Origin: Bacillota bacterium
GTDB taxonomy: Bacteria > Bacillota > Clostridia > Lachnospirales > CAG-274
DNA: 64,000 bases
NCBI GenBank assembly: GCA_017543265.1
Contig: JAFYGI010000048.1
Span: 1 to 64,000 of the forward strand
Direction: 5' to 3'
This document shows positions 622-18,025 of this stretch, one piece after another. The notes below the pieces were generated by a model. It did not search any database, was not told the origin of the DNA, and saw only the letters and a program-made list of their open reading frames with translations. The position numbers were made by a program, and so were the translations under genes. Numbering within the stretch: the stretch's first letter is position 1; every line of letters starts with the position of its first letter.

Positions 622-1773
622 ATGAGCAGAGCAATAATTATAGTTTTAGACGCTGTCGGTATCGGGGAGCTGCCGGATGCGGCGGAATACGGCGATGCGG
701 GCAGCAATACATTGATGCACGTCAAAGCCGCCGTGCCCGAGACTGTATTAAAAAATATGTGCAAAATGGGGTTGGGGCTTATCAAGGACTGCGGCAACAT
801 TTACGACAAGGTCGATGCGCCCCTTGGCTTTTACGGCAAAGCGGCCGAAAAATCAAAGGGCAAGGACACCACAACGGGGCATTGGGAGATATCGGGGCTT
901 TGTCTTGAAAAGCCGTTTCCGACCTACCCGAACGGCTTCCCGAAAGAGGTTATAGAGGAATTTGAAAAACGCATAGGCCGAAAGACCCTCGGCAACTACC
1001 CCGCCTCGGGCACGGAGATAATTAAAGTTCTCGGCGCGGAGCATATAAAAACGGGCTATCCCATTGTATATACCTCGGCGGACAGCGTTTTTCAGATAGC
1101 GGCGCACAAAAGCGTAATACCGCTTGAAACGCTTTACGAATACTGCCGTATCGCGCGGGAGCTTTTGCAGGGTGAGCATTGTGCGGCAAGAGTTATCGCA
1201 CGACCCTTCGAGGGCGAAGAGGGCAGCTTTGTGCGCACATCCGAGCGGCACGATTTTTCGCTGCCCCCTACGGGCAAAACGCTTTTGGACTATGTAAAAG
1301 AGGCGGGCATGGAGGTAAAGGCCGTAGGCAAGATAAAGGATATATTCGCAAACCGCGGCATAACCGAGCACGCACCCACAAGCGGCAACGCGCAGGGCAT
1401 AGAGGAAACGATAAAATTTATGAAACGGGACTTTGACGGGCTTATCTTCACCAATCTGGTGGATACGGATATGCTTTACGGCCACCGCAACGATCCTTTG
1501 GGCTTTTCCCGCGCACTTGAATATTTTGATTCAAAATTGCCCGAAATACTTGACAATTTACGTCCCGATGATTTATTATTTATTACAGCCGACCATGGCT
1601 GTGACCCTACCACGGCATCTACCGACCATTCGAGGGAGTATATTTTCATCCTCGGTGTCGGCGGCAATATAACGGGAAATATCGGCACACGCCTTACCTA
1701 CAGCGATATAGGCAAGACCGCCGCCGAATTTCTGAAAATACCAAACGATTTAAAAGGAGAGGTAATCAAATGA
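622..1773 (+). CDS. deoB: Phosphopentomutase DeoB
   Basis: Converts (deoxy)ribose-1-phosphate to the 5-phosphate in nucleoside salvage; cytoplasmic, alkaline-phosphatase superfamily. At 383 residues it has the usual family length. The Mn ligands known from the Bacillus cereus enzyme are all present at a constant offset: D10, D283, H288, D324, H325 and H336. The phospho-acceptor threonine T85 lies in KDTTTGHWE. The start is set by ATG 622 preceded by GCGAGGTG. Its last codon and stop overlap the start of the next gene by 4 nt (ATGA), so the secreted pectin esterase downstream is probably translationally coupled to it. That pairing is unusual for a salvage enzyme. Confidence 0.97.
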
Positions 1774-4700
1774 AGATACGCAGACTGATATCGGGCGTGA
1801 TGAGCGGCATTATCGCCGTAAGCGTTATGAGCTTTCCTGCCTATGCAGCCGACAGCGTCAGCATAAATGTCGGCAGCGGCGGCTTTGCCACCGTACAGCA
1901 GGCCATAGACAGCGTAAAGGCAGGCCAGAGCGCGGTCATAACCATCGCCCCCGGCACCTACGAGGAGGCTGTTGTGGTTGATAAGCCCAATATAAAGCTT
2001 GTAAACAACAACAAGTCCAAGGATGTTATCATCACATACGACCGCGGCCCCGCACACACCGACCCTGCCAAAAAGCTGGGCACGGAAAAATCGGCCACCG
2101 TTATCGTGACCGAAAAGGCAACGGGCTTTTCCGCGGACAACATTACATTTAAAAACACCTATAATATAGGTACAAACTTCGATTACGGCCAGGCAGTTGC
2201 CTTTGAGAGCCTTGCGGACAAGGTCGTGCTTGAAAACTGCTCGTTTATCGGCAGACAGGACACCCTTTATTTAAAGGGCGCATCAAAGGGCAAGGAGGTC
2301 TACGGCAGCGCAAAGCCCGCAAGAGTTTACCTTAAAAACTGCTATATCGAGGGTACGATAGATTTTATCTTCGGCGATGCCACCGCTTATTTTGAAAACT
2401 GTAAGCTTTTTATGGCCTACAACGAAAAGGGCGGTCACTTCACAGCCCCCAACACAACGCTTTTCAACATAGGCTATGTGTTTAATAAATGTCAGTTTTT
2501 AACGGACGAAAAATATGATTCGGACTCCGCGGCAGCCGCAAAAATAGACCTGGGCAGACCGTGGCAGGCCAACTCTACCTATCCCAACAGCGGCTCATAT
2601 ACCGCAATTTTAAACAGCAAAATGTCAAGCCTTATACCCAAAACTGGCTTTAGCATATGGGGCGACGAAACCATACAAAACAAGGTACGTTTCTACGAAT
2701 ACGGCTCCACCGACTTAAAGGGCAGACCCCTTGATATTTCGGGCAGAAACAAAAATATCTGCACCGTGCTTACGGCAGAGCAGGCAAAATTATTCACCCC
2801 CTACAGCGTTTTATGCGGCAGCGACAAATGGAACCCCGCAAAGGACAAAAAAAGCGATGCAAACGCAATGGATATCACGCTTGACAAGTATTCGGCCGAG
2901 CTTCCGCAGGGTGAAAGCACCGTGATAAAGGCGGCAGGCAGCAAGGTAAAGAGCTTTGTTTCGGGTGACAGCAGCATTGCATCGGTCGATGCAGGCGGCA
3001 AGGTAACGGCTGTTTCACAGGGCAGCACGGATATAACCGTCACGGGCGAAAACGGCTTTACGGCCACCGCAAAGGTAACGGTGACCGCATCCAGAACGGC
3101 GGCACCCACCATAAAGGATATAAAAATAGACCATATAAGCACCTTTGCACCCGGTACCACAATGACCGTAAACTACAGCTATACGCTTGAAAGCGACAAC
3201 GCTGCGGATGCGGCAAGGATAAGCTGGTATCTTTTAAAGGACGGCAGCGAGATACTTCTTAAAAAGGGTGTCGGTGCGGCTTACAAGACATATACCGTAC
3301 AGTCAAGCGAGGTCGGCGGCAAGTACAAGGCCATTGTGGAGCCCGCTACAAAGACCAGCTACGGCGATTACGGAAAGGCCGCTGCCGTGACCGATGACAG
3401 CGTTGTGCAGGGCAGCGTTTCGGCAGAGATACTGACGGGCTTTAACGAGGGCACAAAACCGTTTGATGCCTCCGACAACTGGACGGTGACAAAGACGGCG
3501 GACAACACGCTTATCACGGCAAACTGCACGGACAAGGCACCGTCAACGCTGGGATTTGAGACCAAAACGGAGAACCCCTATCTTCGCCTTAAAATGCGTT
3601 TCAATCCCGAGGGTACGGGTCTTTCCTCCGAGGACTATGCCAATATTTATTTGAACAAAAACGACAAAGACGGCTACAAATTAAGCATACAGCGCGGCAG
3701 CAATATGCAAAGCCTTAAGCTTTACATCTACAAGGTAACGGCAGAGGGCGAAAAGCTGCTTGCAAGCGACGACAAGACGCTTAAAAACAACGTAAACCAA
3801 AACAGCGGCGAAAATAATCCGTTTTTCTATATTGATTTTTATAAAAACGCAGATACGCTTACCGCGGTATTCAGGCTTGACGGCGAGGACGACCTCTGCA
3901 AGCTTACGGGCCGCGATACACAGCCGTTAAAGGGCGGCAGCCTTTATATGGAATTTGCGGGCAAGGCAAATGTATGGCAGATAGACACACTCAGCCTTGA
4001 AAACAGCGACAGCAAGGCAAAGGAAAACGCCATCCACGTTTATCTTGCGGGCGACTCCACGGTAAAGGACTACGGCTCAAGCAACACGATAGGCGGCTGG
4101 GGCGAGTTTATAAAGGACTACTTCACAGACGATGTTGTGGTAGTAAACAAGGCCGAGGGCGGCAGAAGCACACGTTCCTACCTTAACCAGGGCAGACTGG
4201 ACGAGATAATCTCACTTGCACAGGAGGGAGATTACCTGTTTATCCAGTTCGGCCACAACGACGCACGAACCGACGATGCGGCGGATATGGAGCACAAGGT
4301 ACAGCTTGGCACACCCGACGAGGACGGCGTTTATCCCGCTATCCCCGCAGTAAAGACAAAGACCCCGCAGTATATACTTGACTTTTACAAGGACGACCCC
4401 TACCCCTACGGCGATATGTTCTATCCCTACGAGTCGGGTACGTTTAAATGGTATTATCAGCAGTATATAGATGCCGCAAAGGCAAAGGGCATGATACCCG
4501 TTGTCATAACCCCCGTGTGCCGCGTGTTCTTTGACGAAAACGGCAAAATAACACCGCACTTCGGCGACGACAACGGCTATATCGAGGCAGTAAGGCAGAT
4601 AGCCAGGGAAAACAACTGCACGCTTATAGATATGTACGATATAACCTCCGCCCTTTACGAAAGCTACGGCGAGCTGTCCACACAGGTACTGCACAATGTA

Positions 4701-5906
4701 AAGGCCGACGGCTCAATGGACCTTACGCACTACAACAAATTCGGCGCAAACCTTATAGCAAGCAAGATGGCCGAATCGTTAAAGGCGCAGAATATCGCCA
4801 TTGCAAAGGATACCAAAAATTCAAACATCTATGTAAGCAAGTTTGATGCACTTAAAGAGGCCAACCTTTTTGTGGTAGGTGATGTGCTGTCGGACAAGAC
4901 CTCCAAAACGGAGGCCGTTAAATCGGCAAGTATGGCGGACAAGCTGCCGCAGTATTTCTCGGACAAGATACACGTTATCGACTATACAAAGGCGGACTGC
5001 ACGGCAAAGGGCTTTTCAAAGACCAAGGAATACGGCGAGTTTATGTCAAAGGTCAATGCAGGTGACTATGTTATACTTGCATTCGGCCGCACGGACAGCG
5101 ACAAATCCACGACCGACAGGATACTTGACGAGTATTCGGGGCTTGACGGCGGTGTCGAAAAGGACGGCTCGTTCAAAAACATCCTCTACAACAGCTATGT
5201 TAAGCCGCTGCACGACAAAAATGCCGTTGTTATCATGATGACACCCATTGTGGATGCCAACTTTAAGGACGGCAGCGTTGTAAACGGACTTGACGGCTAT
5301 TCGGCCGCAGTAAGGGAGACCGCTGTTGAAAATTATCTTTACTTTGTGGATATGAACGGACAGTCGGCCGAGCTATGGAACAAAATGGGTGTTGAGGGCA
5401 GCAAGGCATTCAACGCCATAGACAGCAAAAACGGCATTGAAAGAAACCGTCTTAACGCCTTTGGCGCGGATACGATGGCACGCACCTTTGTAAGCATGAT
5501 GAAGTATTCGTCCGCAACGCTTAAGACCTATATCAACGAGGCCGAATTCTCCAAGACCGATACGCTTACACGCGGAGAGTTTACCAGAGATATGGTCGCC
5601 GTGCTGGGCGTAAGCGACACAAGCGGCGCAAACTTCAAGGACGTGACAAAGGGCAAGGATTATTACGATGCGGTACTGACCGCAAAAAATCTTAAGCTTG
5701 CACCCGGTTATGTAAGCGGAAGCTTTAAGCCCGAAAACGAGATATACGGCAACGATGCCGTAAATATGCTCAAGGCGGCGTTAAAGAAAAAGGGCAAAAA
5801 GATCACCGCGTTGAACGACGTTTACGATCTTATGCCGATAGACAAAACCGTTTCCAACGAAATAGGCCTTTATGCGATAGCAAGACTTTACGAGGAAACA
5901 AACTGA
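1770..5906 (+). CDS. Secreted multidomain pectin esterase: CE8 + Big2 + CE12 + degenerate SGNH + SLH
   Basis: Signal peptide 1-26 (MKIRRL..., cut near AYA-AD). Residues 30-345 are a pectin methylesterase (CE8) with Q141, D164 (GRQDTLY), D198 (GTIDFIFG), R263 and W265 (LGRPW). Residues about 368-438 form a bacterial Ig-like (Big_2) domain, followed by two beta-sandwich regions (445-750). Around 755-1010 is a CE12-type rhamnogalacturonan acetylesterase with GDS near 761, GHND near 829 and DLTHYN near 983. Residues 1030-1255 repeat that SGNH fold without its catalytic residues (GDV, GRTD, no Asp-His). The last 120 residues look SLH-like. It probably removes methyl and acetyl groups from pectin at the cell surface. 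The start overlaps the deoB stop by 4 nt. Confidence 0.9.
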
Positions 5907-6747: not shown

Positions 6748-8568
6748 TTATATCGGCCTTTTATTTCTGCGCTTATAAAGCTTTGCAAATATCAGCGCCG
6801 CGGCCATTATCCCGCCGCAGGCAAGCAGCTCGCCGCGTCTGCTGCCCGTTTGGGTCTCGGTGCTTTCCCGCTGCTTATCTTCCATACGCCCGGGATGCTG
6901 ATGTCCGCCCTCGCCCATACCCTTGTCGTCATTGTGCATACTGCCCATGACGGAGGTATCTATATCCGATGCGTCGATAAGGGCATCGCTGTCGGCCTGC
7001 CCGTCCTTTGTGGAGGGGATATTGCCGTCAAGCTGTTCCCTTACGCTCTGCGCACGCAGCTTTACGGTCTTGTAAAGCATTTCATGCGCCGCCGTAAATT
7101 CGTCATAGCTGTAAAAGGCATTGGGGTCTGTTTTGACCTTGTCGCTTATCTGTGACAGTATCCTGTTGTAGGTCTCGTCAAAAGCGCCGCCGTCAACATA
7201 TTCGTCCACAAGCTTTTGGTAATACTCGTGATACCTTGCAAGGTATTCGTCGTTTTCCAGCAGTGCGTCAAAAAAGTCCGTACCGTCAAACGGCGTATCT
7301 ATGGGGTCGTTTATCATGCTGTCGGCACTGCTTTTTTCGGACTCGCCGTCCTTTTTGCCGCCGGGGCCGCCGCCCATATTGCCCATGCCGCCCAGGGAAA
7401 GATTATAGTCCCACGGTATGATATTGAGCCTGCCGCCGCTTTCATACAGGTAGTAATTATGTGACATATTGCCGCTTAAGCTGTCCTCGTTCACCAAAAA
7501 CGAATGTACCGCCATATACCGCAGCAAATTGTCCACATCCATATATTTTTCAAGCTCGTTGCCCTCGCTTATGTTTTTAAGCGCCGTTACAACGCGCTTG
7601 TGCGCCTTGTTGCCCGTGTCCCTTACGCTTGCCTCCCAGATAGAGGAATAGCTGTCAAGGTCGTCATCTGTGTAGTTGAGGTTTGCGCCGTTTCCGCCGA
7701 AGCCGCCCTTTTTGCCGTCTTTGCTTTCCTTGCCGTCTTCCTTTGCATCATCACCGTCGTCGGATGACTTGAAGTCGGGCATATTCTCAAAATCGGGCAT
7801 ATTCTCAAAGTCGGGCATTTCCCCAAAATCGGGCGGTGCCTGCATACCCTCGGGCATATTTTCAAAGTCGGGAGGCTTTCGCATACCCTCCGGAGGCTGA
7901 CCCATACCAAAGCCGCCTTCTTTGTCGTTGTTTCCCATATTCATCGGGTCAGGCTTGTAAAGCTCGCCCCTTTGCACACCGTAATTGCGCATTATAAAGC
8001 TGTCCTCAACGCCCTCCAGCGCCAGATATATGCCCCAGTATTCGCCGTTTACGGAAATATCGGCATAGTTGTAAAGCGACGCATCCGCCCCGATAAAGCG
8101 GAACATATCGTAGGCTATGGCCTCCTTCATATTGGTAGCATCGGCGTAGTTGTTGTTAAGCACCAGCTTGTCAAGTCCCCAGCAGGTCTGTCCCTCAACA
8201 TAATGCCCAAACTCCAGCTTAAAGCTGTATCTGTCGGTATCGGGGTCGTTGACTATGGACGAAAGAGAGGTATTGCCCTTTGGCCTTATGCCGACATTTG
8301 AAAACAGCGTGCCGTTTATCTCCACATCGCAGGAATAGTATTCCTCGTCGGCGGCATTTTCCATCATTTCATCCCATTTATCGCTGTCCATGATTATATT
8401 AAGGCTTATTATGTCGGAGGTGTCAAAAAGCTTTTCCTCGTAATCCATTGTTACACCGTCCTCGCCCGACTTTTTGCCGCCGTATATAACAAACACGGCA
8501 ACGCAGGCCGCAAGCGCAAGCAGCATCACAAGAAGCACCGCATGGGTCATGTATTTTGATGATATCAT
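6748..8568 (-). CDS. CotH kinase-family membrane/surface protein
   Basis: 606 residues. N-terminal membrane anchor (about 8-29), then a CotH-type atypical kinase domain: GIRPKGNTSL, the stretch around DKLVLNNNYADATNMKEA, GEYWGIYLALEGVE, and IPWDYNLSLGG, the metal-binding D in the C-lobe. The fold is interrupted near residues 215-300 by a low-complexity insert of PDFENM/PPDFG repeats and a K/D/G-rich stretch. The C-terminus has a hydrophobic segment followed by KRRNKR. CotH proteins phosphorylate spore-coat proteins in Bacillus; in polysaccharide degraders they are common but their substrates are unknown. It is the last gene of a three-gene operon with DUF4956 and VTC genes, 11 nt after the former, with ribosome site GAGGTGAT. 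Confidence 0.88.
   Translation of the reverse strand: MISSKYMTHAVLLVMLLALAACVAVFVIYGGKKSGEDGVTMDYEEKLFDTSDIISLNIIMDSDKWDEMMENAADEEYYSCDVEINGTLFSNVGIRPKGNTSLSSIVNDPDTDRYSFKLEFGHYVEGQTCWGLDKLVLNNNYADATNMKEAIAYDMFRFIGADASLYNYADISVNGEYWGIYLALEGVEDSFIMRNYGVQRGELYKPDPMNMGNNDKEGGFGMGQPPEGMRKPPDFENMPEGMQAPPDFGEMPDFENMPDFENMPDFKSSDDGDDAKEDGKESKDGKKGGFGGNGANLNYTDDDLDSYSSIWEASVRDTGNKAHKRVVTALKNISEGNELEKYMDVDNLLRYMAVHSFLVNEDSLSGNMSHNYYLYESGGRLNIIPWDYNLSLGGMGNMGGGPGGKKDGESEKSSADSMINDPIDTPFDGTDFFDALLENDEYLARYHEYYQKLVDEYVDGGAFDETYNRILSQISDKVKTDPNAFYSYDEFTAAHEMLYKTVKLRAQSVREQLDGNIPSTKDGQADSDALIDASDIDTSVMGSMHNDDKGMGEGGHQHPGRMEDKQRESTETQTGSRRGELLACGGIMAAALIFAKLYKRRNKRPI
7771..7836 (-). repeat. 18-nt tandem repeat inside the CotH gene
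   Basis: Units of ATTCTCAAARTCGGGCAT recur at 7783-7800 and 7801-7818, with partial copies on either side. They encode PDFENM repeats and are in frame, so slippage would change length without breaking the gene. Confidence 0.8.
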
Positions 8569-8579
8569 ATATTATCACC

Positions 8580-9254
8580 TCACGACATATATTCTCCGTT
8601 ATAGCTTACCAGTACGGCATCCTTTACACCGTCTGCCTTGCATATCTCGTTAAGGAAGGCTGTGGAGGAGTCTTTAAGGCGTATCTCCGCAGTAAGTTCT
8701 ATATTGCCCTTTCTTACCGTCTTGCTTTTTACAACGCGCTTTTCGCAGCTGCCGTCCACAAGCTGCATCGCACGCTGTTCCGCAGCCTCGTCCGCACAGT
8801 TGATAACAATGATATAGGGTGTGTGGGACGATTTTTTATTTGCCATTACAAGTATAAAAATACCGATTATTACAGAGCCTATCACTACCAGCGGTATCAT
8901 GCCCGCGCCGATAACTATGCCCGATGCAAGTGCCCAGAAAAGAAAAACTATTTCCATAGGTTCCTTTATGGCTGTACGGAAACGCACGATGGAAAGCGCA
9001 CCTACCATACCCAGCGAAAGCACAACATTTGACGTGACCGCCATAATAACAAGTGTCGTCACCATGGCAAGCGCAGGCAGCGTAAGCGCAAAGTTTGTGG
9101 AGTACATAACGCCCGAAAAGCTCTTTTTGTACACAAAAAATATAAACATACCCACCGCAAAGGCAAAGGCAAGGCCTATAAGCGTATCGGAAAGCGAAAA
9201 GCTTGAAACATTGTCAATAAAGCTTGATTTAAAAACATCGTTGAATGTTGTCAT
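8580..9254 (-). CDS. DUF4956 membrane protein
   Basis: 224 residues with three or four N-terminal transmembrane segments (about 25-45, 55-75, 78-95, 100-135) and a soluble C-terminal alpha/beta domain. The conserved cytoplasmic loop GALSIVRFRTAIKEP is the family signature. No enzymatic function is established. The gene lies between the CotH and VTC genes with gaps of 11 and 15 nt, ribosome site AAAGGAGATAATAAT, so it is almost certainly co-transcribed with both. The same trio recurs in other genomes, suggesting a membrane complex that couples polyphosphate synthesis to a CotH kinase; that last point is inference. Confidence 0.92.
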   Translation of the reverse strand: MTTFNDVFKSSFIDNVSSFSLSDTLIGLAFAFAVGMFIFFVYKKSFSGVMYSTNFALTLPALAMVTTLVIMAVTSNVVLSLGMVGALSIVRFRTAIKEPMEIVFLFWALASGIVIGAGMIPLVVIGSVIIGIFILVMANKKSSHTPYIIVINCADEAAEQRAMQLVDGSCEKRVVKSKTVRKGNIELTAEIRLKDSSTAFLNEICKADGVKDAVLVSYNGEYMS

Positions 9255-9269
9255 ATTATTATCTCCTTT

Positions 9270-9956
9270 TTAACCGAATTTTCTGCACGCACCATACTTT
9301 GAAAACGAGGTGTGCATTTTGTCTGTCTGTACTATGTCCGCTATTATTTCGGGCAGGAAGTCGTCAAACTTGACCTCCAGCACCATATATCCCTGTTCGT
9401 CACCGACATCCACATCAAGCACATCTTCCTCCATAAACCGTCGGCAAAAAGCCGTGCTTCTGATGTTCATATCAAAGGTGACGCGGACATTGCCCGCGGC
9501 GTAAATATAAGGCTCGCGCGTGTAGGATACCAGCACCCTTGGCCTTAGCAGCCCCGCCGTCAGCTTTGTGTAAAACTCACGCACCAGCTCGCTTTCGTGT
9601 GACGGCATCCATGTATAGTCGCCGTCAAGCAGCCGCCTGCACTCCTTATCGGTTATTTTTGCCGATACCTTCATGCAAAGGTCGCCTATTTTCATCTTTT
9701 TTTCAAGCGACATAAGCGAAAAATCGTCGTTGTAATAGCGTATGCGGAACTTTTCGCGCCTTTCCAGACCGCTTATCTTCTCACGCAGCGCCTTGTCGTT
9801 GTAATTGTCAAAATATATGCTGCGTATTTTGTATCTGCCGTCCACGGTATGCGGATCGCTTTTCATAACAGCCCGCAGCCGCCCACGCATATTATAATAA
9901 TCAAAATAGCTTATTATATATTTCAGCTCATGCCGATATCTCGGTACTTTGTCCAT
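9270..9956 (-). CDS. VTC-domain polyphosphate polymerase
   Basis: 228 residues forming one VTC (tunnel-fold) domain. Visible features include the N-terminal R-Y-R-H-E-L-K-Y strand, RYKIRSIYFDN, REKFRIRYYN, the basic strand SLEKKMKIGDLCMKVS, RPRVLVSYTREPY, VRVTFDMNIRST and the terminal acidic strand VLEVKFDDFLP. The basic residues line the tunnel in yeast Vtc4, which makes polyphosphate from ATP. No SPX or transmembrane part is attached, so membrane location would come from the DUF4956 partner. It is the first gene of the operon, with ribosome site AAAAAGGAGGCAGG and a promoter at 9986-10014. Confidence 0.9.
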   Translation of the reverse strand: MDKVPRYRHELKYIISYFDYYNMRGRLRAVMKSDPHTVDGRYKIRSIYFDNYNDKALREKISGLERREKFRIRYYNDDFSLMSLEKKMKIGDLCMKVSAKITDKECRRLLDGDYTWMPSHESELVREFYTKLTAGLLRPRVLVSYTREPYIYAAGNVRVTFDMNIRSTAFCRRFMEEDVLDVDVGDEQGYMVLEVKFDDFLPEIIADIVQTDKMHTSFSKYGACRKFG

Positions 9957-10125: not shown

Positions 10126-10145
10126 CCCAAATTTATTGATTTGGG
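10126..10145. promoter_or_regulatory. Operator-like palindrome over the GH98 -35 element
   Basis: CCCAAAT (10126-10132) and ATTTGGG (10139-10145) form a perfect 7-bp inverted repeat with a 6-nt centre, overlapping the -35 TTGATT at 10136. Confidence 0.5.
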
Positions 10146-10164
10146 CAAAAATACATTATATAAT
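10136..10164 (+). promoter_or_regulatory. Sigma-A promoter of the GH98-dockerin gene
   Basis: TTGATT (10136-10141), 17 bp, TATAAT (10159-10164), 34 nt before the start codon at 10198. Confidence 0.85.
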
Positions 10165-10197
10165 GTTGCTTGTATTACTATTCAGGGGGAGAAAAAT

Positions 10198-13100
10198 ATG
10201 AGTTTTAAAAAAATAATCGCAGCGGCAATGTCGGCGGTCACGCTGTGCAGCTGTATACCGCTGCAGGTATATGCTGCATCACGGGACACGGCAGATGAGT
10301 TTTCGGCCGTAACGGCACTTGGCGTACAGGTAACGGAATACCCGGCAGACGGCGTTATCCGCCGCCCGCTGTCTAACGAACAGCCGATGTGGATAGTCCA
10401 CATAGACGCATGGAACTATCCCGATCCGGAAAAGATAATAGACCTGGTGCCCGAGGATGTACTGCCTTATGTGGTATTTAACCTTTCGCTTTCGATAAAT
10501 TGGGACAAAAAGGAGCATCGCTGGAAAATGGTGCATGACGGCTACGAAACGGCCAAATCATGGCTACGCAGCTGTGCCGACAAGGGCGTTTGGACAACTA
10601 TCCAGCCCGCAAGCGGCGGTCAGTGCCACTTTCCCGATTATTACGAAGGCTCGCCCGCAGGCAACAGCCTTGACGGCACACTTTTCGAGGAATTTTTCAA
10701 GGAATACCCAAACTTTTTGGGCTACAACTACTGTGAGCAGTTCTGGGGCTTTGAGGATCCGGATTTTCCCATAAGCTGCCCCAACCGCTACCGTCATTTT
10801 GCAAACCTTTTGGAGCTTTGCAACCGCTACGGCGGCTACCTTAATATAAGCTGGTGCGGCAACCAGTGGAGCCCCGCTATAAACCCGCTTGCCATGCTTA
10901 AACAGGTGCCCGAGTGGAGGACGGCCTGCGCAAATTATCACCAAAACCTTATTATGGAAGAAAAATACACCCAGCTCAGCTATATCCACGACAAGGAAAG
11001 CCTTGTATACGGCTACTTTATAGGCGGCTGGTGCGACAACTACGGCGTAAGATACGACGACACGGGCTGGTCGGACTACGGCTATTCGGGCACGGGTGAT
11101 GAGACCAAGGATCAGTACAGACTGACAACATCCATACCCATCCATTTTGAGCGTATGGCCATGAACGGTGCTACGGTCATCGACGGCCCCGAGCTTATCT
11201 GGAGGGACGATATAAATACGCTTTTCGACGGCACGGACAGCGAGGGCTACAGATACAGGCGCTTTGCATTCTTCCCGCAGTACGAGAATGTAATGCTGGA
11301 GACCTTCCGCAAGGTGCTTGATAAGACCATACGCATACCCGACCGAAAAGAGGCGGTAGAGCGCACAAAAATAGCCGTTATACAGGATGTCAGCGGCAAT
11401 AAAAACGGCTTCGGCGACAACCTTTACAGCAGCTACGAAACGCTGTTTGAGGGTCTTTACCGTATGCCTAATGACGGCAATTTAAAGGATAATTTCGACC
11501 TTTACAAAAGCACGGGACGTTATCAGACCATACCCACGGTATACGCACTGCGCGACGATCTTGCAAAAACCATACCCGTACAGATAAAGCAGTCGCAGAT
11601 ACCGTCAAGATGGGCTTCTATAGCCGCAAAGCAGGCGGAGTTCAACCAATACTACCCCGACGACACCGAGGGCGGCAATTCGTTCTGGGCAAGAAACGAG
11701 AACACCTGGTTTACATACAACCCGAACAAAACGGGTACGGCGGCAGGCAGTATATTAAAGCTTAAATACAACACCTGCAAGACACTTGATATAAGCCACT
11801 CCGCCGCCTACGGCACAGCGCTTGTAAACGAGTACACCGACCATATCGACATATACCTTAATAATTACGACCAGAAAAACAGCGGTACGACCACCGATAC
11901 GCTCACAATAAAGGGCGCATCCTCAAAGCCGAGCTATACGGCAAAGGACCGCGCAACTCCCATGGTTGCAAGCAAGATAACCGAAAGCTGGGAGGACGGC
12001 GTTTATAAGCTTACCGTCGAGCATAACGGCGCACTTGACCTTACAATAAACTGCCAAGGCAATGAAACGGGCAAGGAAACGGCATATAAGACCGCAACCT
12101 ACACCGCGCCCCAATTCCCTGCATTTTACACGGGCACACGCCAGTACGAGGCCGAGAACTTTGACTGTAAAAATGTTGAGGGCAACGTAACAAACGGCTG
12201 TAATACGGATACCGTAAGCTTTCAGGGCATGGGCTTTATGCGCTTTGGCACAAACGCGGGCGCGGCGGTAAAGGACACGGTAAAAACAAGCAAGGCGGGC
12301 GATTTTGAGCTTACGTTAAGATATTCCACCACCACCGCAAACAACGGCATAGACGTATATGTAAACGGTGAAAAGACGGGTACTCTTTCGCTTGCGGCAG
12401 GCTCGTCATTAAGCGATTGGAAGAGCGTGTCACAGACCGTCACCCTTAAAGAGGGCGAAAATAAAATAGAGTTTAAGGCAAACTCCACGCTCCCGAGCAC
12501 CGTTTATCTCGATAATTTCACCCTTGACGGCGTATTCGGCGATGCCGAGGGCGCAGTTGAGATAGCAGGCGGTGAGATAGTTGACTCGCTTAAGGTAAAC
12601 GACCGCACGAATGCGGCAGGCTGGTCTGTACAAAGCAGCTTTGAGGAAAATTCCAGGCTTTACGGCGACCGCGATTTTACCTGCACGGAGGTACCGAAAA
12701 CACTTGCGGGCGCGGAGTATATCCAAACCGCGTGCGAGTCCAAAATGTATACACAGCCCCTCGGCTCGTTCAAGGCCGCCAAGGACTGCGATATTTACGT
12801 TTTGTCGGACGCGCGTGTAGCGGCAGATTTCCCCGATTGGCTTAGGAGCTATGAAAAAACGGGCATGACCGTTACCACCTCGGGCGGACATACGCTTGAT
12901 GTTTACTATAAGGCCTTTAAAAAGGACAGCACCGTGATACTCGGTGCAAACAGCGCCTCCGGCTACGGAAACAGCGTTAATTACATTGTGCTTGCGGTAA
13001 AAGCAAGAGGCGATGTAAACGGTGACGGCATTATTGATGATGCCGATGCAAAGATAGTGCTTGACTGTGCCGCAAACGACAAAGAGCTTTCAAATAATTA

Positions 13101-13542
13101 CGATTTCAAGGCCGCAGATATGGAAACCGATAACGCCATTGACCTTTTGGATGCAATAAAAATACTTAAAAACAAAACAAAAAAAGGTCAGAAGCTTGAC
13201 CTGTCAAAGGCGGGTGTCGGCGAATATTCCGACGGTGCCTTGAATATAAAGGACACACTCACATTCCAGCTTCCCCTGCCAAAAACGGTAAAGGCGGGCG
13301 AGGAAGTCAAGGTCTACGTTACCGCAAAGGATGACGGCGGCACGGGTTTCAGAGCCTACCTGACAGGCGGCGTTGACAGCGCCCTTTCCGACATACAGGC
13401 GGTATCGGGCACCGGCTCGGTCTCAAAGGACATTGAGTTTACGCTGACCGCAACCGGCGATGCAAGCCATATCCTGTTTAAGGGACCCAACTACAATACC
13501 AATATGGCGGACATTACATTTGAATATATAGCTGTGGAATAA
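10198..13542 (+). CDS. Secreted GH98 glycoside hydrolase with CBM and internal dockerin
   Basis: The start is ATG 10198 after CAGGGGGAG, giving a clean signal peptide (MSFKKIIAAAMSA..., cut near VYA-AS) and 1114 residues. Residues about 40-345 match the GH98 catalytic module (MWIVHIDAWNYPDP, GYNYCEQFWGFED, IDGPELIW) and 350-600 the GH98 C-terminal module. Residues 640-780 form a CBM6/35-like sandwich (YEAENF ... VYLDNFTLDG). An uncharacterised sandwich (785-930; YGDRDF, AGAEYIQTA) follows, then a type I dockerin (937-1000; GDVNGDGIIDDADA, ADMETDNAIDLLDA) and a final beta domain. GH98 enzymes include blood-group endo-beta-galactosidases and endo-xylanases; here a xylanase is more likely from context. 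Confidence 0.87.
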   Translation: MSFKKIIAAAMSAVTLCSCIPLQVYAASRDTADEFSAVTALGVQVTEYPADGVIRRPLSNEQPMWIVHIDAWNYPDPEKIIDLVPEDVLPYVVFNLSLSINWDKKEHRWKMVHDGYETAKSWLRSCADKGVWTTIQPASGGQCHFPDYYEGSPAGNSLDGTLFEEFFKEYPNFLGYNYCEQFWGFEDPDFPISCPNRYRHFANLLELCNRYGGYLNISWCGNQWSPAINPLAMLKQVPEWRTACANYHQNLIMEEKYTQLSYIHDKESLVYGYFIGGWCDNYGVRYDDTGWSDYGYSGTGDETKDQYRLTTSIPIHFERMAMNGATVIDGPELIWRDDINTLFDGTDSEGYRYRRFAFFPQYENVMLETFRKVLDKTIRIPDRKEAVERTKIAVIQDVSGNKNGFGDNLYSSYETLFEGLYRMPNDGNLKDNFDLYKSTGRYQTIPTVYALRDDLAKTIPVQIKQSQIPSRWASIAAKQAEFNQYYPDDTEGGNSFWARNENTWFTYNPNKTGTAAGSILKLKYNTCKTLDISHSAAYGTALVNEYTDHIDIYLNNYDQKNSGTTTDTLTIKGASSKPSYTAKDRATPMVASKITESWEDGVYKLTVEHNGALDLTINCQGNETGKETAYKTATYTAPQFPAFYTGTRQYEAENFDCKNVEGNVTNGCNTDTVSFQGMGFMRFGTNAGAAVKDTVKTSKAGDFELTLRYSTTTANNGIDVYVNGEKTGTLSLAAGSSLSDWKSVSQTVTLKEGENKIEFKANSTLPSTVYLDNFTLDGVFGDAEGAVEIAGGEIVDSLKVNDRTNAAGWSVQSSFEENSRLYGDRDFTCTEVPKTLAGAEYIQTACESKMYTQPLGSFKAAKDCDIYVLSDARVAADFPDWLRSYEKTGMTVTTSGGHTLDVYYKAFKKDSTVILGANSASGYGNSVNYIVLAVKARGDVNGDGIIDDADAKIVLDCAANDKELSNNYDFKAADMETDNAIDLLDAIKILKNKTKKGQKLDLSKAGVGEYSDGALNIKDTLTFQLPLPKTVKAGEEVKVYVTAKDDGGTGFRAYLTGGVDSALSDIQAVSGTGSVSKDIEFTLTATGDASHILFKGPNYNTNMADITFEYIAVE

Positions 13543-13547
13543 AAACA

Positions 13548-13586
13548 AAGCCCGCACGGAAATACGCCGTGCGGGCTTATTTTTTT
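13548..13586 (+). terminator. Terminator of the GH98 gene (bidirectional)
   Basis: AAGCCCGCACGG / CCGTGCGGGCTT hairpin (13549-13578) followed by a run of T. The convergent histidine kinase gene ends at 13588. Confidence 0.92.
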
Positions 13587-13587
13587 A

Positions 13588-15021
13588 TCATGAATTTCCT
13601 TTGGCCAATGTAAGTGTAAAGGTGAATGCACAGCCCTTGCCGACATCACTTTTAAGGGTAATGGTCTCGTTATGCGCCTTAACAAACTCGCGCACTATGC
13701 TCAGGCCCAGACCCGTGCCCTTTTTGTCCATGCCGCGTGATGTATCGGCCTTATAAAGTCTGTCAAATACCTTTTTCTGATCCTCCTTGGATACACCCTT
13801 GCCGTTGTCCTTTACGGTGACAAAAATCTTTTTGCCGTCCTTGCTCGGCTCCGTTATAACACGGATAATGCCGTATTTATGCGTAAATTTCAGGGCATTG
13901 TCCACAAGGTTGTATATGATACGCTGTATTTTTTCCTCGTCTGCGGCAACGATACATTTATCGTTATAAAGTTCCGAGTCAAGGTCGATAAAGTTCTTTG
14001 CCGCACGCTCCTCAAAGGTGCTGAGGGTGTGGCGTATCAGCTCGTTCACATCAAACGGCTTTATGTTAAGCTTTTCCGACTCCTCCAGCTTGTTTATTTC
14101 AAGCAGGTTGTTTGCCAGCTTTGACAGTCTTTCCGTCTCGTCCAGCACTATCTGCAGGTACCTTTCGCGCTTGCCCTCTGGTATGGTGCCGTCCAGTATA
14201 GCCTGCAAAAAGCCGCGCATCGACGTAAGCGGCGAGCGCAGGTCGTGAGAGATGTTTGACAAAAACTCACGGCGGCTTTTTTCCTGCAGGTAAAGGCTTG
14301 ATGCCATTTCGTTAAAGCTGTTTGCCAGCTGTCCTATCTCGTCGTCATAGCTGACGCGGATCCTCTTTTCAAAATCGCCGCTTGCAATGACCTTTGCCGC
14401 ATCGTTAAGCTCGCGCAGGGGCGCGGCAAACGAGCGCGACGAGAGGTACACCATCCAAAAGCCCAGCAGTATCGTAAGAAACAAAAATACCACAAATATC
14501 CAGTAGCACGAGCGCATGGTCTGCGACATATCCTCGGCGGAGCTGGATATACAGGCAACGGCGCATACAACGCCCGCCTTGTTTTTAAGCGGATAGCACT
14601 TTGTGTACATCTCGATATCGTAGATACCGATATCGTTTTTCCTGTACTCCATCGTTTCGCCCTCAAGCGTATTTTCAAGCTTGTCAATACTCAGGCGCGT
14701 TTTAAGGTTGTCGGGGTTTATGTTGGAGGATGCCCAGAAAACATTAAGGTCGGCATCCGTTATAATAAACGACTTGTCCGAATAGGAGTCCAGCAGACGC
14801 AGAGCCTGCATAAAGGCCGTGGTGTCAAGCGCACCGTCCTCCGTGGTCGCATTGTCAAAAAACATCTGCACCCTTTCGGCCCAGCCGTCTATCTCACTAC
14901 CCATCTGCTTGTAGCCAAAGCTTCTTATGGACTGTATGATACCTATGCTCATCAGTCCCAGACAAAGCACGATGGTAAATGTAAAGCTGTAAAATTGTTT
15001 TTTAAAGATAGAATTCATCAT
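13588..15021 (-). CDS. Membrane sensor histidine kinase
   Basis: 477 residues. Transmembrane segment 1 (about 12-32), an extracellular sensor region of about 130 residues, transmembrane segment 2 (about 172-192), HAMP (195-245), HisKA with the phospho-acceptor H near 258 in NISHDLRSPLTSMRG, and an HATPase domain with NLVDNALKF (N box), DNGKGV (G1) and GTGLGLSI (G2). It is expected to phosphorylate a response regulator, but none is adjacent. It is the last gene after the stalk protein, serpin and cupin genes, 21 nt after the cupin stop, so its input may relate to the cell envelope. That link is inferred from position only. Confidence 0.93.
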   Translation of the reverse strand: MMNSIFKKQFYSFTFTIVLCLGLMSIGIIQSIRSFGYKQMGSEIDGWAERVQMFFDNATTEDGALDTTAFMQALRLLDSYSDKSFIITDADLNVFWASSNINPDNLKTRLSIDKLENTLEGETMEYRKNDIGIYDIEMYTKCYPLKNKAGVVCAVACISSSAEDMSQTMRSCYWIFVVFLFLTILLGFWMVYLSSRSFAAPLRELNDAAKVIASGDFEKRIRVSYDDEIGQLANSFNEMASSLYLQEKSRREFLSNISHDLRSPLTSMRGFLQAILDGTIPEGKRERYLQIVLDETERLSKLANNLLEINKLEESEKLNIKPFDVNELIRHTLSTFEERAAKNFIDLDSELYNDKCIVAADEEKIQRIIYNLVDNALKFTHKYGIIRVITEPSKDGKKIFVTVKDNGKGVSKEDQKKVFDRLYKADTSRGMDKKGTGLGLSIVREFVKAHNETITLKSDVGKGCAFTFTLTLAKGNS

Positions 15022-15042
15022 TCAGCCTCATACCTATAGTTG

Positions 15043-15378
15043 TTATTTCAAAAAATCTTCCCTCTGCGGTGAAAAAATATCCAGCAGCCTGCCCTTTTGC
15101 GTAAGCAGCTTGCAGCTGTGCGGTACGTCGGACGGCATATATATCGTGTCGCCCACGCCTATTTTCTTTATCTCGCCGCCCACATTAAACTCAAACTCGC
15201 CCTCAAGGCAGTAGGTAGCCTGCTCGTGCGGGTGTGTATGCTCGCTGCCGAAGCCGCCGTTTTCAAAAAACACCTCCACCAGCATCACATTGCCGTCATG
15301 CGCCTTTATTTTGCGGTAGTTCTGCCCGGGCACCAGCACCTCAAGCTCCGCATCCTTATCATAATAAAAATTTGACAT
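15043..15378 (-). CDS. Small cupin-domain protein
   Basis: 111 residues forming a single cupin barrel. Metal-binding motif 1 is visible in HTHPHEQATYCLEGEFEF (two or three His and a Glu) and motif 2 in the segment around MPSDVPHSCK. Family members bind metals or small ligands and often act as sensors or isomerases; nothing here fixes the role. I chose ATG 15378 because TTAAGGAG lies 9 nt upstream. A longer ATG at 15399 overlaps the serpin stop as ATGA but has no ribosome site of its own. The serpin gene ends at 15396, so the two are tightly linked. Confidence 0.85.
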   Translation of the reverse strand: MSNFYYDKDAELEVLVPGQNYRKIKAHDGNVMLVEVFFENGGFGSEHTHPHEQATYCLEGEFEFNVGGEIKKIGVGDTIYMPSDVPHSCKLLTQKGRLLDIFSPQREDFLK

Positions 15379-15395
15379 ATCTTTTCTCCTTAAAA

Positions 15396-17012
15396 TCATT
15401 TTGCATAGGCTACTTCGCCCATAAACAGTATCTCGTCGGTATTGCTGTCAACGATAAAATAGCTGAAGGGCTTATCTGCGATAAAGTCCTTTATCACAAC
15501 GGGCTCGGGGTCGAACATTGCGGCACCCTCCACCATTATTGCAGTTACCGCAGCGGCCTCCGTACCGTTTTCGTCAACCTCGATAAAGGTCTTGTGCAGT
15601 ATCTTGTCAACATAAAACCTATTTGCACCGCCTTGGAGCATTTTTGTAAAATCGGCCGTATCCACACTAAACGCCGTATTTATGCCCAGCTTTTGCAGCA
15701 TACCGTTTATGGTCTCGCTGTATTCCACCTTGAATTTAGGCATCTTTATATGCACCTGACAAGTTGACATTTTGTCCATATAGGGCGTTATGTCCACCCT
15801 TTTGTCGTTTGAAAGCACAACATACATCGCAGCCGTACCGCCGTTGTAGGGCATCCTTACGATCCGGATATCCTTGTCCTCGTAGTACATAAAGTCCTCG
15901 GTCTGGCTCATAAATTCCATTTTCTGCGCCTTGCCGTCCCTGTCGGTAAAAGTGTCCTCATGGGTAGCGTATTCATCAAAGCAATTTATCCATCCCGCCT
16001 TGAAATACACCGCATTTACAAGCGCCGCAAGAAATTCGGGGCTGTCGATAATGCTGGGTATCTTGCCGTTGGTCTTTTTGCTGCACCACGAATTTATCTT
16101 GTCCACCGCATTGGTCTGATCGACCTTTTCAATATCGGCATCAAAATTCTGGCGCATATTTTTAATATAGCCGTCATTAAAGGAAACATCGCCCAATTCC
16201 TTTGCCCTGTCGGTATTCAGCCATACGCTGTTTGCAATGGAAAGCTGTGTTTTCTCCGGCATCTGCATACCGTAGTATTCCTCGTAGTATTCCTTTTCTT
16301 CCTCCTCGCCTTCCGCGTAGGTGTTTATAAGCGCCCTGGCATAGGCGTTGTATTTTTCGAGATCGCCAAGACCCGCCGTTTTGACTATCTCTGCCTTTGT
16401 TTCGCCGTCTGCGCCGTTTGCCGCAAGGGCAAGCGCCATTTTTATACTAAGGGGTGAAAACATATAGTTTTTATCCCTTGGCATAAGCTCGTTCATGCTG
16501 TAGGCAAAGCTGTTGTCGGCCTTTACATCGCCGATATCTATGTCCTCGGTCACTTTTTCATCAACCTCCCCGCTTTTTACATAAACGGTCTTTGTTTCGC
16601 CGTCCCAGTCCACCGTAAGGCCGAGACCCTCCGATGCCGCACGCAGCGGCAGATAAAGCCTGTCGTTTATTACCTGCGCAGGTACGTCCGTATCGACCTT
16701 GACCTGCGGCGCGATACTGCTGTAGGGGGCACCGATGTATACGCTGCCGTCATTTGCGTCCACGCTCATATATTTTTCGCCTTTTTCAAATGTCGCAAGC
16801 TTTGACTCGGCATACCAGTTTACGCTGTAGCCAAGCTGCTCGTACACGCCGCGCAGGGGCACAAGCGTCCTGCCGTCGCGTATCACCGCATTTATATCTA
16901 TGGCGGCATCGTTTACCACCACGCTTACCGCATCTGCCGCGTGTACACAGCAGGTCATTGCCATAACGGCCGCAGCGGCGGTCAGTATTTTGCCAAATTT
17001 CATTTCTCGCAC
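15396..17012 (-). CDS. Secreted serpin fused to a copper-amine-oxidase-N (stalk) domain
   Basis: 538 residues. Signal peptide 1-26, then two Cu_amine_oxidN1-type repeats (28-150; GRTLVPLRGVYEQLGYSVNW, INDRLYLPLRAASEGLGL), a wall-associated stalk found in many Clostridia. From about 165 to the end is a complete serpin: YMFSPLSIKMALALAANGA, the breach/shutter segments ANSVWL and NAVYFKAGW, and a reactive-centre hinge VDENGTEAAAVTA with G at 483. The intact hinge with small residues suggests an inhibitory serpin, and P1 by standard numbering falls near residue 497 in an Ala-Ala context. It probably protects secreted enzymes from proteases, as proposed for cellulosomal serpins. Ribosome site GGAGGTG; 5 nt after the upstream gene. 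Confidence 0.93.
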   Translation of the reverse strand: MREMKFGKILTAAAAVMAMTCCVHAADAVSVVVNDAAIDINAVIRDGRTLVPLRGVYEQLGYSVNWYAESKLATFEKGEKYMSVDANDGSVYIGAPYSSIAPQVKVDTDVPAQVINDRLYLPLRAASEGLGLTVDWDGETKTVYVKSGEVDEKVTEDIDIGDVKADNSFAYSMNELMPRDKNYMFSPLSIKMALALAANGADGETKAEIVKTAGLGDLEKYNAYARALINTYAEGEEEEKEYYEEYYGMQMPEKTQLSIANSVWLNTDRAKELGDVSFNDGYIKNMRQNFDADIEKVDQTNAVDKINSWCSKKTNGKIPSIIDSPEFLAALVNAVYFKAGWINCFDEYATHEDTFTDRDGKAQKMEFMSQTEDFMYYEDKDIRIVRMPYNGGTAAMYVVLSNDKRVDITPYMDKMSTCQVHIKMPKFKVEYSETINGMLQKLGINTAFSVDTADFTKMLQGGANRFYVDKILHKTFIEVDENGTEAAAVTAIMVEGAAMFDPEPVVIKDFIADKPFSYFIVDSNTDEILFMGEVAYAK

Positions 17013-17017
17013 CTCCG

Positions 17018-17953
17018 TTAATCCATATAGCCGAAAAAGCCCCTGTCGTCGGCCGTATTGCGCAGGCCGAAGCAGTCAAGCACCTCTTTGTCGGCATTTT
17101 CGTCGAACCTGCCCGGCCACCATGACAAAAATTCCTCCGAAAGATCCTTTGTGGGCGTACCCGGAAGATACAGCACAAACTCGTCACCGCCGTCCAGACC
17201 GTAAGGCACCGCAGCAATGTATTTTATGCCCTTTTCTATCCATTCCTCGCCCTCTTTTTTGTCGGAAGCAAGCTCTTCAAGCTTTAATGTATAGCTGCCG
17301 TCCGCATTTTTGCCCTTAACGGCAAACTTGCCCGAAAAGCCGCAGACATACACCGTTCCGTCGGGAAAATCCTCGCCTGTGGAGCCCATCTCGGAGTCCG
17401 AATATATACCCGCAAATGTGCCGTCATTGTCCATATTCAAAAACGTGCCCCAACCGCCCGCGCCGCTTGAAAACTCAAACTGCTCGGGGAGTTTTTCCTC
17501 TATCACGGCCGTATTTTCGGCGGGCAGTTCCGTCAAAGGCTCGCTTTTTATATAGACGGTCTTTGTTTCGCCGTCCCACTCCACCGCAAGGCCGAGGCCC
17601 TCCGATGCCGCACGCAGCGGCAGATAAAGCCTGTCATTTATTATCTGTGCGGGTACGTCCGTTTCGACCTTTTCGCCGTCTGCCGTAACGCTGCCGTCCC
17701 TGCCGTCAACCGTCATTGTATGCTCGCTGCCGACAAAAGCCGCCGTCTTGGTCTCCGCATCCCAGTTCACGCTGTAGCCAAGCTGCTCGTATACGCCGCG
17801 CAGGGGCACAAGTGTCCTGCCGCCCTCTATAACGGCATCTGTATCTATCGGTTTGTCATTGACAACAACGCTTACACCGCCGTCTGCGGCACAAACACAT
17901 ACCGCTGCCGCAAAAACCGCCGCCGTTGTAAGCAGAATTTTTTTAAATTTCAT
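17018..17953 (-). CDS. Secreted stalk-domain (Cu_amine_oxidN1) protein of unknown function
   Basis: The start is ATG 17953 (ribosome site AGAGGAAGG), giving a 311-residue protein with a signal peptide (about 1-22) and the same two-repeat stalk (25-145) as the serpin that follows it. The two N-termini are nearly identical in long stretches, e.g. RTLVPLRGVYEQLGYSVNW, so one arose from the other by duplication with a swapped C-terminus. The C-terminal half (about 165-311) is unrecognised, aromatic- and Gly-rich (SGAGGWGTFLNMDNDGTFAG, LSWWPGRFDEN), and may be a ligand-binding domain. First gene of the four-gene operon ending in the histidine kinase. Confidence 0.85.
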   Translation of the reverse strand: MKFKKILLTTAAVFAAAVCVCAADGGVSVVVNDKPIDTDAVIEGGRTLVPLRGVYEQLGYSVNWDAETKTAAFVGSEHTMTVDGRDGSVTADGEKVETDVPAQIINDRLYLPLRAASEGLGLAVEWDGETKTVYIKSEPLTELPAENTAVIEEKLPEQFEFSSGAGGWGTFLNMDNDGTFAGIYSDSEMGSTGEDFPDGTVYVCGFSGKFAVKGKNADGSYTLKLEELASDKKEGEEWIEKGIKYIAAVPYGLDGGDEFVLYLPGTPTKDLSEEFLSWWPGRFDENADKEVLDCFGLRNTADDRGFFGYMD

Positions 17954-17996: not shown

Positions 17997-18025
17997 ATAA
18001 TATCATATACCGCACGGTATGTCAA
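17997..18025 (-). promoter_or_regulatory. Strong promoter of the stalk-serpin-cupin-kinase operon
   Basis: On the minus strand: TTGACA (18025-18020), 17 bp, TATTAT (18002-17997). It fires toward the start at 17953. Confidence 0.88.
18007..18020. promoter_or_regulatory. Palindromic operator candidate inside the promoter spacer
   Basis: ATACCG (18007-18012) and CGGTAT (18015-18020) form a perfect inverted repeat with a 2-nt centre between -35 and -10 of the serpin operon, a classic repressor position for TetR-type proteins. Confidence 0.55.

Follow-up and report, generated by a model that had tools for sequence, protein, structure and literature searches.

A putative envelope-held serpin adjoining a cupin-kinase unit in a clostridial genome

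Bacterial serpins have been described in several settings that bear on the locus reported here. Cellulosomal serpins include PinA of Clostridium thermocellum and Doc-SERPIN of Ruminococcus flavefaciens FD-1 (PMC2930009, PMC8201313). In Bifidobacterium breve, proteases are reported to induce the serpin by way of a two-component system adjoining its operon, a system reported absent from B. longum subsp. longum (PMC8012564). BsuPI protease inhibitors are reported to be fused to Cu_amine_oxidN1 and SLH domains (PMC3901451).

Our literature search found no report of cell-wall binding by Cu_amine_oxidN1 and no description of a serpin joined to a stalk of this type. The serpins of gut Clostridia are believed to affect protease balance at the mucosa, and, to our knowledge, little has been established on how they are retained at the cell and controlled. 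Here, we describe a serpin locus that combines such a stalk with a cupin and a sensor kinase.

Organization of the locus and its first gene

The window (the whole stretch of DNA analyzed, 64,000 nucleotides) carries four minus-strand genes within positions 13588 to 17953, which by their ORF coordinates form a compact unit, with intergenic gaps of 14 nt (P0004/P0003), 17 nt (P0003/P0002), and 21 nt (P0002/P0001). That a stalk protein, a stalk-serpin, a cupin, and a kinase lie side by side had been the starting point of the original prediction, and all four ORFs are present as follows.

17997 to 18025, minus strand: promoter-like site of the sigma-70 type, TTGACA-17-TATTAT with a TG extension (extended -10), from sequence reading
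17018 to 17953, minus strand: P0004, with a signal peptide, a Cu_amine_oxidN1 stalk (aa 30 to 135), and an uncharacterized C-terminal domain (about aa 150 to 311), from Pfam, alignment, and tree
15396 to 17003, minus strand: P0003, with a signal peptide, a Cu_amine_oxidN1 stalk (aa 30 to 142), a linker, and a serpin domain (aa 164 to 532), from Pfam, alignment, and AF2
15043 to 15378, minus strand: P0002, a single-domain cupin (Cupin_2, 2.7e-14), from Pfam
13588 to 15021, minus strand: P0001, a membrane histidine kinase with two TM segments and, from Pfam, HAMP, HisKA, and HATPase_c domains
13548 to 13578, two-way: strong intrinsic terminator-like hairpin of 12 pairs, from sequence reading

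The promoter-like site ends 43 nt ahead of the P0004 start codon, and the hairpin closes both the serpin operon and the GH98 gene that converges on it. Given the short gaps and the flanking promoter-like site and terminator, the simplest reading is that P0004-P0003-P0002-P0001 would be transcribed as one mRNA. The converging gene (10141 to 13542) encodes a GH98 enzyme with a CBM and a dockerin-like stretch; the GH98 family includes blood-group-antigen endo-beta-galactosidases. Elsewhere in the window, a minus-strand cluster of CotH kinase, DUF4956, and VTC-domain genes occupies 6748 to 9956, and a protein of 1378 aa combining pectinesterase, GDSL esterase, Big_2, and SLH domains is encoded at 1770 to 5906.

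The explanation that we favor, and consider rather probable, is that of an envelope-held suicide serpin cotranscribed with an older cupin-kinase unit, the kinase being partnered by a regulator on contig 2. After export, P0003 would stay attached to the cell envelope through its N-terminal stalk domain and act there as a suicide trap, usable once, for serine proteases of the elastase or subtilisin type: cleavage of the exposed loop would be followed by insertion of the loop into the main sheet and by covalent locking of the protease. The gene would be transcribed together with the cupin and membrane kinase of the older unit, and P0001 would most likely phosphorylate an OmpR-type regulator whose gene follows mutS2 on a different contig. 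Within the window's genus, the serpin promoter would have come to drive the kinase, so that serpin and kinase levels would be tied, and P0004, with its duplicated serpin promoter, leader, and stalk, would bring another small domain to the same location.

Matches to Cu_amine_oxidN1 (PF07833) are well above the Pfam cut-off of 24.2 bits in both P0003 (7.7e-35, 119.5 bits) and P0004 (7.9e-29, 100.2 bits). Aligned over the domain, the stalks of P0003 and P0004 share 74% of their residues, and Pfam recognizes nothing in P0004 after the stalk. Two of the original claims are borne out by these results, namely that P0004 and the serpin share a stalk, the former with a C terminus of unknown kind, and that a serpin is fused to Cu_amine_oxidN1, as both domains of P0003 exceed their Pfam cut-offs. 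About 30 loci in the 2.49-Mb window genome match the stalk domain, mostly at the N terminus and some at the C terminus. The stalk is a general module in this genome, and its sharing by P0004 and P0003 is therefore not special in itself. What is special about P0004 is that its stalk groups with serpin stalks: it falls inside the serpin-stalk group (support, 99/96), apart from the proteins of about 500 aa that share its C-terminal domain (found in G001, G002, G004, G005, and G014). P0004 is not simply one of these longer proteins, since its stalk groups elsewhere in the tree and their middle part is missing from it in the alignment. Orthology with a 388-aa stalk protein encoded on contig 47 is likewise ruled out by the tree for the stalk half.

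The DNA ahead of P0004 resembles that ahead of the serpin gene in G004, G002, and G001; in short alignments, a promoter-like stretch, AAATTGACAT...TATATG-TAT, lies in register between P0004 and the three serpin upstream regions. The simplest account would make P0004 a chimera, arising when a duplicate of the serpin gene's upstream portion became fused to a foreign C-terminal domain; its promoter, too, apparently derives from the serpin gene. As a chimera, P0004 would show the stalk acting as an exchangeable address label. No P0004-type gene lies ahead of the serpin in G001, G002, or G004, and the four-gene order, proposed earlier as a check, is not conserved, P0004 being upstream of the serpin in the window genome alone.

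The C-terminal domain of P0004 carries the motif FSSGAGGWGT...DGTFxGxYSDSEMG. Its AF2 model, made from the single sequence, has a pLDDT of 48. A profile search of the PDB returned weak antibody-type noise (best E, 0.027), and against Pfam the best match was CREG_beta-barrel (E, 0.0035), seen in two relatives and not in the window copy. In more distant genomes, sequence reading places the domain at the end of a lipoprotein-like protein and of an M56-peptidase-like sensor protein, which suggests that it is probably extracytoplasmic. One such M56-peptidase-like (BlaR1-type) sensor protein, with the P0004-type domain at its end, lies at L047:1-1980.

The cupin-kinase unit and its regulator

The extracytoplasmic sensor region of P0001 spans about aa 30 to 174. 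Assignments of the kinase as WalK/VicK (277 of 725 bits), PnpS (224 of 400 bits), and BaeS were rejected, as it falls below the NCBIfam equivalog cut-off of each. Cupin and kinase adjoin in every family genome that has both (29 of 29; gaps, -1 to 408 nt). In other genera, a DUF3006 ORF is often found between them and sporulation genes of the yqfC/yqfD type lie alongside, and in genus g7 kinase homologues lacking the cupin sit beside yqfC/yqfD. A serpin adjoining the cupin-kinase pair was seen in none of the family genomes outside the window's genus, where a single genome has serpin and cupin on one contig, 40 kb apart. Within the genus, the serpin-cupin-kinase order is present in four genomes, that of the window (G000), G001, G004, and G005, the last with a serpin-cupin gap of about 200 nt; G002 is split here by contig ends, and G003 is not informative.

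Pairing of cupin and kinase across the family, with the serpin nearby only in the window's genus, argues that the cupin-kinase pair came first and that the serpin joined it later, in that genus only. Because the pair exists across the family without an adjoining serpin, the original signal of the kinase was probably something other than proteases. Any effect of the kinase on the serpin is hypothetical, and the functional link may be weak, since the other genera of the family have the cupin-kinase pair with no serpin beside it. What stands of the predicted envelope module is a serpin that is exported, very probably inhibitory, and fitted with an N-domain of the envelope type, and that apparently shares one transcription unit with cupin and kinase. 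Three other genomes of the genus have the serpin-cupin-kinase order as well; the first gene, however, is not conserved.

The kinase had also been described as having no adjacent regulator, and no response regulator adjoins P0001 in the window neighborhood of the operon; it is not truly alone, however, as a partner is found on contig 2. This candidate is an OmpR-type regulator encoded after mutS2 (G000:C2:31629-32312). In G089, a kinase homologue adjoins a regulator 76% identical to it, and in a survey of 146 relatives, with adjacency defined as within 1.5 kb on the same strand, regulator and kinase homologues are adjacent in 24 of the 32 non-family genomes having both. Within the family, presence of the two agrees in 44 of 48 genomes, an agreement whose Fisher value takes no account of common descent, and both are undetected in all nine genomes of genus g5. 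The order in G005 is serpin-cupin-kinase-mutS2-regulator, which places kinase and regulator one gene apart, and mutS2 also precedes the regulator in G000, G001, G004, and G089. Each of the five other OmpR-size regulators of G000 has a HisKA kinase close by, and the three remaining short regulators, typed by eye, resemble two of the LytTR type with their own sensors and one Spo0A. The pairing is strong because gene neighborhood, co-absence, and elimination of the other regulators all lead to the contig-2 gene, which answers the search for a partner suggested earlier and is almost certainly the regulator of P0001. Its nearest models are MtrA, YycF, and PhoB, with scores below their cut-offs.

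It is a serious possibility, just short of probable, that relocation placed the cupin-kinase pair behind the serpin in the genus's ancestor, that the pair is no more than cotranscribed with it, and that kinase and serpin do unrelated jobs. The yqfC/yqfD-type surroundings of the pair in other genera, often with the intervening DUF3006 ORF, are in keeping with such a move, as are the location of those genera's serpins elsewhere and the wide serpin-cupin gap in G005; yet four genomes of the genus still have the order, although the serpin has diverged to 49 to 69% identity. This account is compatible with the serpin part of our favored explanation.

Protease-responsive feedback, in which the kinase would sense envelope proteolysis or serpin occupancy and induce the operon via the contig-2 regulator, seems doubtful. 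Such a loop would suit a kinase that lies in the apparent serpin transcription unit of four genomes of the genus, and the protease-induced serpin of B. breve, with its adjoining two-component system, offers a reported precedent (PMC8012564). Elsewhere in the family, however, the kinase is kept with the cupin and not the serpin, the regulator sits with mutS2 and not the serpin, and the general MtrA/YycF/PhoB-type models to which the regulator is nearest suggest a housekeeping envelope role. P0001 might sense proteases only hypothetically, by analogy. We also think it unlikely that the kinase-cupin pair was recruited behind the stalk-serpin to give a surface protease-defense operon, in which the kinase would adjust serpin and P0004 via the distant regulator and exchanged anchors would aim the inhibitor at wall or cellulosome.

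The serpin domain and its anchors

In the favored explanation, the envelope-held suicide serpin is P0003. Its serpin domain is full length (PF00079; 3.6e-81, 273.7 bits versus a cut-off of 27, profile positions 4 to 368 of 370), and its closest PDB sequences are of the Tengpin type (1e-45). An AF2 model built from 35 aligned sequences has a pLDDT of >90 across most of the domain, with low confidence in loop 492-502 and in the linker, and Foldseek with this model ranks tengpin and antithrombin best and miropin further down (TMt, 0.82 to tengpin). The hinge, E478-NGTEAAAVT, is of the inhibitory type, with small residues at P15 to P9, and the reactive loop lies at about aa 488 to 505. With the hinge Glu counted as P17, the formal P1 is Ala494, and that of relatives, counted alike, is always small (Ala, Thr, or Gly). 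Pairwise identity among six related serpins, five stalked and one stalkless, is 94% in the hinge (P17 to P8), 60% in the core, and 45% from P7 to P6'.

Because the serpin domain is intact and the inhibitory hinge canonical, P0003 is very probably an exported protease trap. Although the serpin superfamily contains non-inhibitory members, it is highly improbable that P0003 is a non-inhibitory or storage-type serpin with P0004 as a bystander, as the canonical G-T-E-A-A-A hinge with its small residues is kept in six related sequences. The reactive loop contains Val-Glu, a type of bond that neutrophil elastase and proteinase 3 cleave in siropin 2 (PMC5127057). The small formal P1 and the Val-Glu pair make elastase- or subtilisin-like serine proteases our best guess as targets; the host genome also encodes subtilisin-type peptidases. 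Protease defense at the envelope is likely.

Other serpins occur in these genomes. A second serpin of the window genome, stalkless and 50% identical, lies at G000:C22:47942-50506 (L049:6943-9507), where it shares an operon with an ECF-like factor of the sigma-70 family and with a 268-aa protein that has one TM segment and resembles an anti-sigma factor; G001 (L056) has the same order. G003 has tandem serpins (L054:1-2686), one of the stalk type and one of the lipoprotein type; the hinge of the latter, GAEQFEPSAY, has lost the canonical sequence, and this serpin is possibly non-inhibitory.

The stalk through which P0003 is predicted to attach to the envelope is, in the AF2 model, a beta-rich domain of about 115 residues with two similar halves. 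Related serpins, whose stalk labels come from Pfam scans, also bear other anchors: that of Candidatus Monoglobus merdigallinarum (L160) has SLH domains at the N terminus, some in G003 and G005 have C-terminal dockerins, and another in G003 has an N-terminal lipobox. Among related serpins, including dockerin serpins of the same genus, one type of anchor (stalk, dockerin, SLH, or lipobox) is exchanged for another. This swapping, together with the reported BsuPI fusions to Cu_amine_oxidN1 and SLH (PMC3901451), lends indirect support to an envelope role of the stalk. Serpins with C-terminal type I dockerins lie at L058:9039-10442 and L059:282-1757, in two genomes of the window's genus that have stalk serpins too. 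The syntenic serpin orthologue in G001 has a short proline-containing leader instead of a stalk, and the nearest relative of P0003 in the serpin tree is the stalkless G001 serpin (support, 98/73). Stalk tethering is therefore not needed in every species, and the earlier view of the stalk as integral to the module has to be given up.

Relation to described systems

Serpins, dockerin serpins, serpin-linked two-component systems, and inhibitor-Cu_amine_oxidN1 fusions are already known; the combination of these parts and the swapping of surface anchors look new. The locus names a candidate anchor, an apparently cotranscribed kinase, a likely regulator, and, in a sister species, a natural stalkless control, which brings both tethering and control within reach of experiments on small constructs.

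With the Group T bacterial serpins (tengpin, miropin, siropins, and the Bifidobacterium serpin), P0003 shares a serpin domain, an inhibitory hinge, export, and small or elastase-type loop residues, a comparison by features; unlike them, it carries Cu_amine_oxidN1 and sits in a cupin-kinase operon. Like PinA and Doc-SERPIN, it is modular and predicted to be extracellular, and its host uses dockerins (55 dockerin and 3 cohesin matches in the window genome). In contrast to these cellulosomal serpins, P0003 has no dockerin, as Pfam finds only serpin and Cu_amine_oxidN1 and the protein ends at the serpin fold. The dockerin contrast drawn in the original prediction thus holds for the window serpin and fails for its genus, since true dockerin serpins, like the cellulosomal ones, occur in sister genomes G003 and G005. 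As in B. breve, a serpin gene lies near a sensor kinase; here, however, the kinase gene belongs to the operon itself, the regulator is encoded apart from it on contig 2, and the kinase has an older cupin partner. The BsuPI/IPI inhibitors differ from P0003 in fold and mechanism and include no serpin, but they are reported to resemble it in joining a protease inhibitor domain to the same surface-type modules (PMC3901451).
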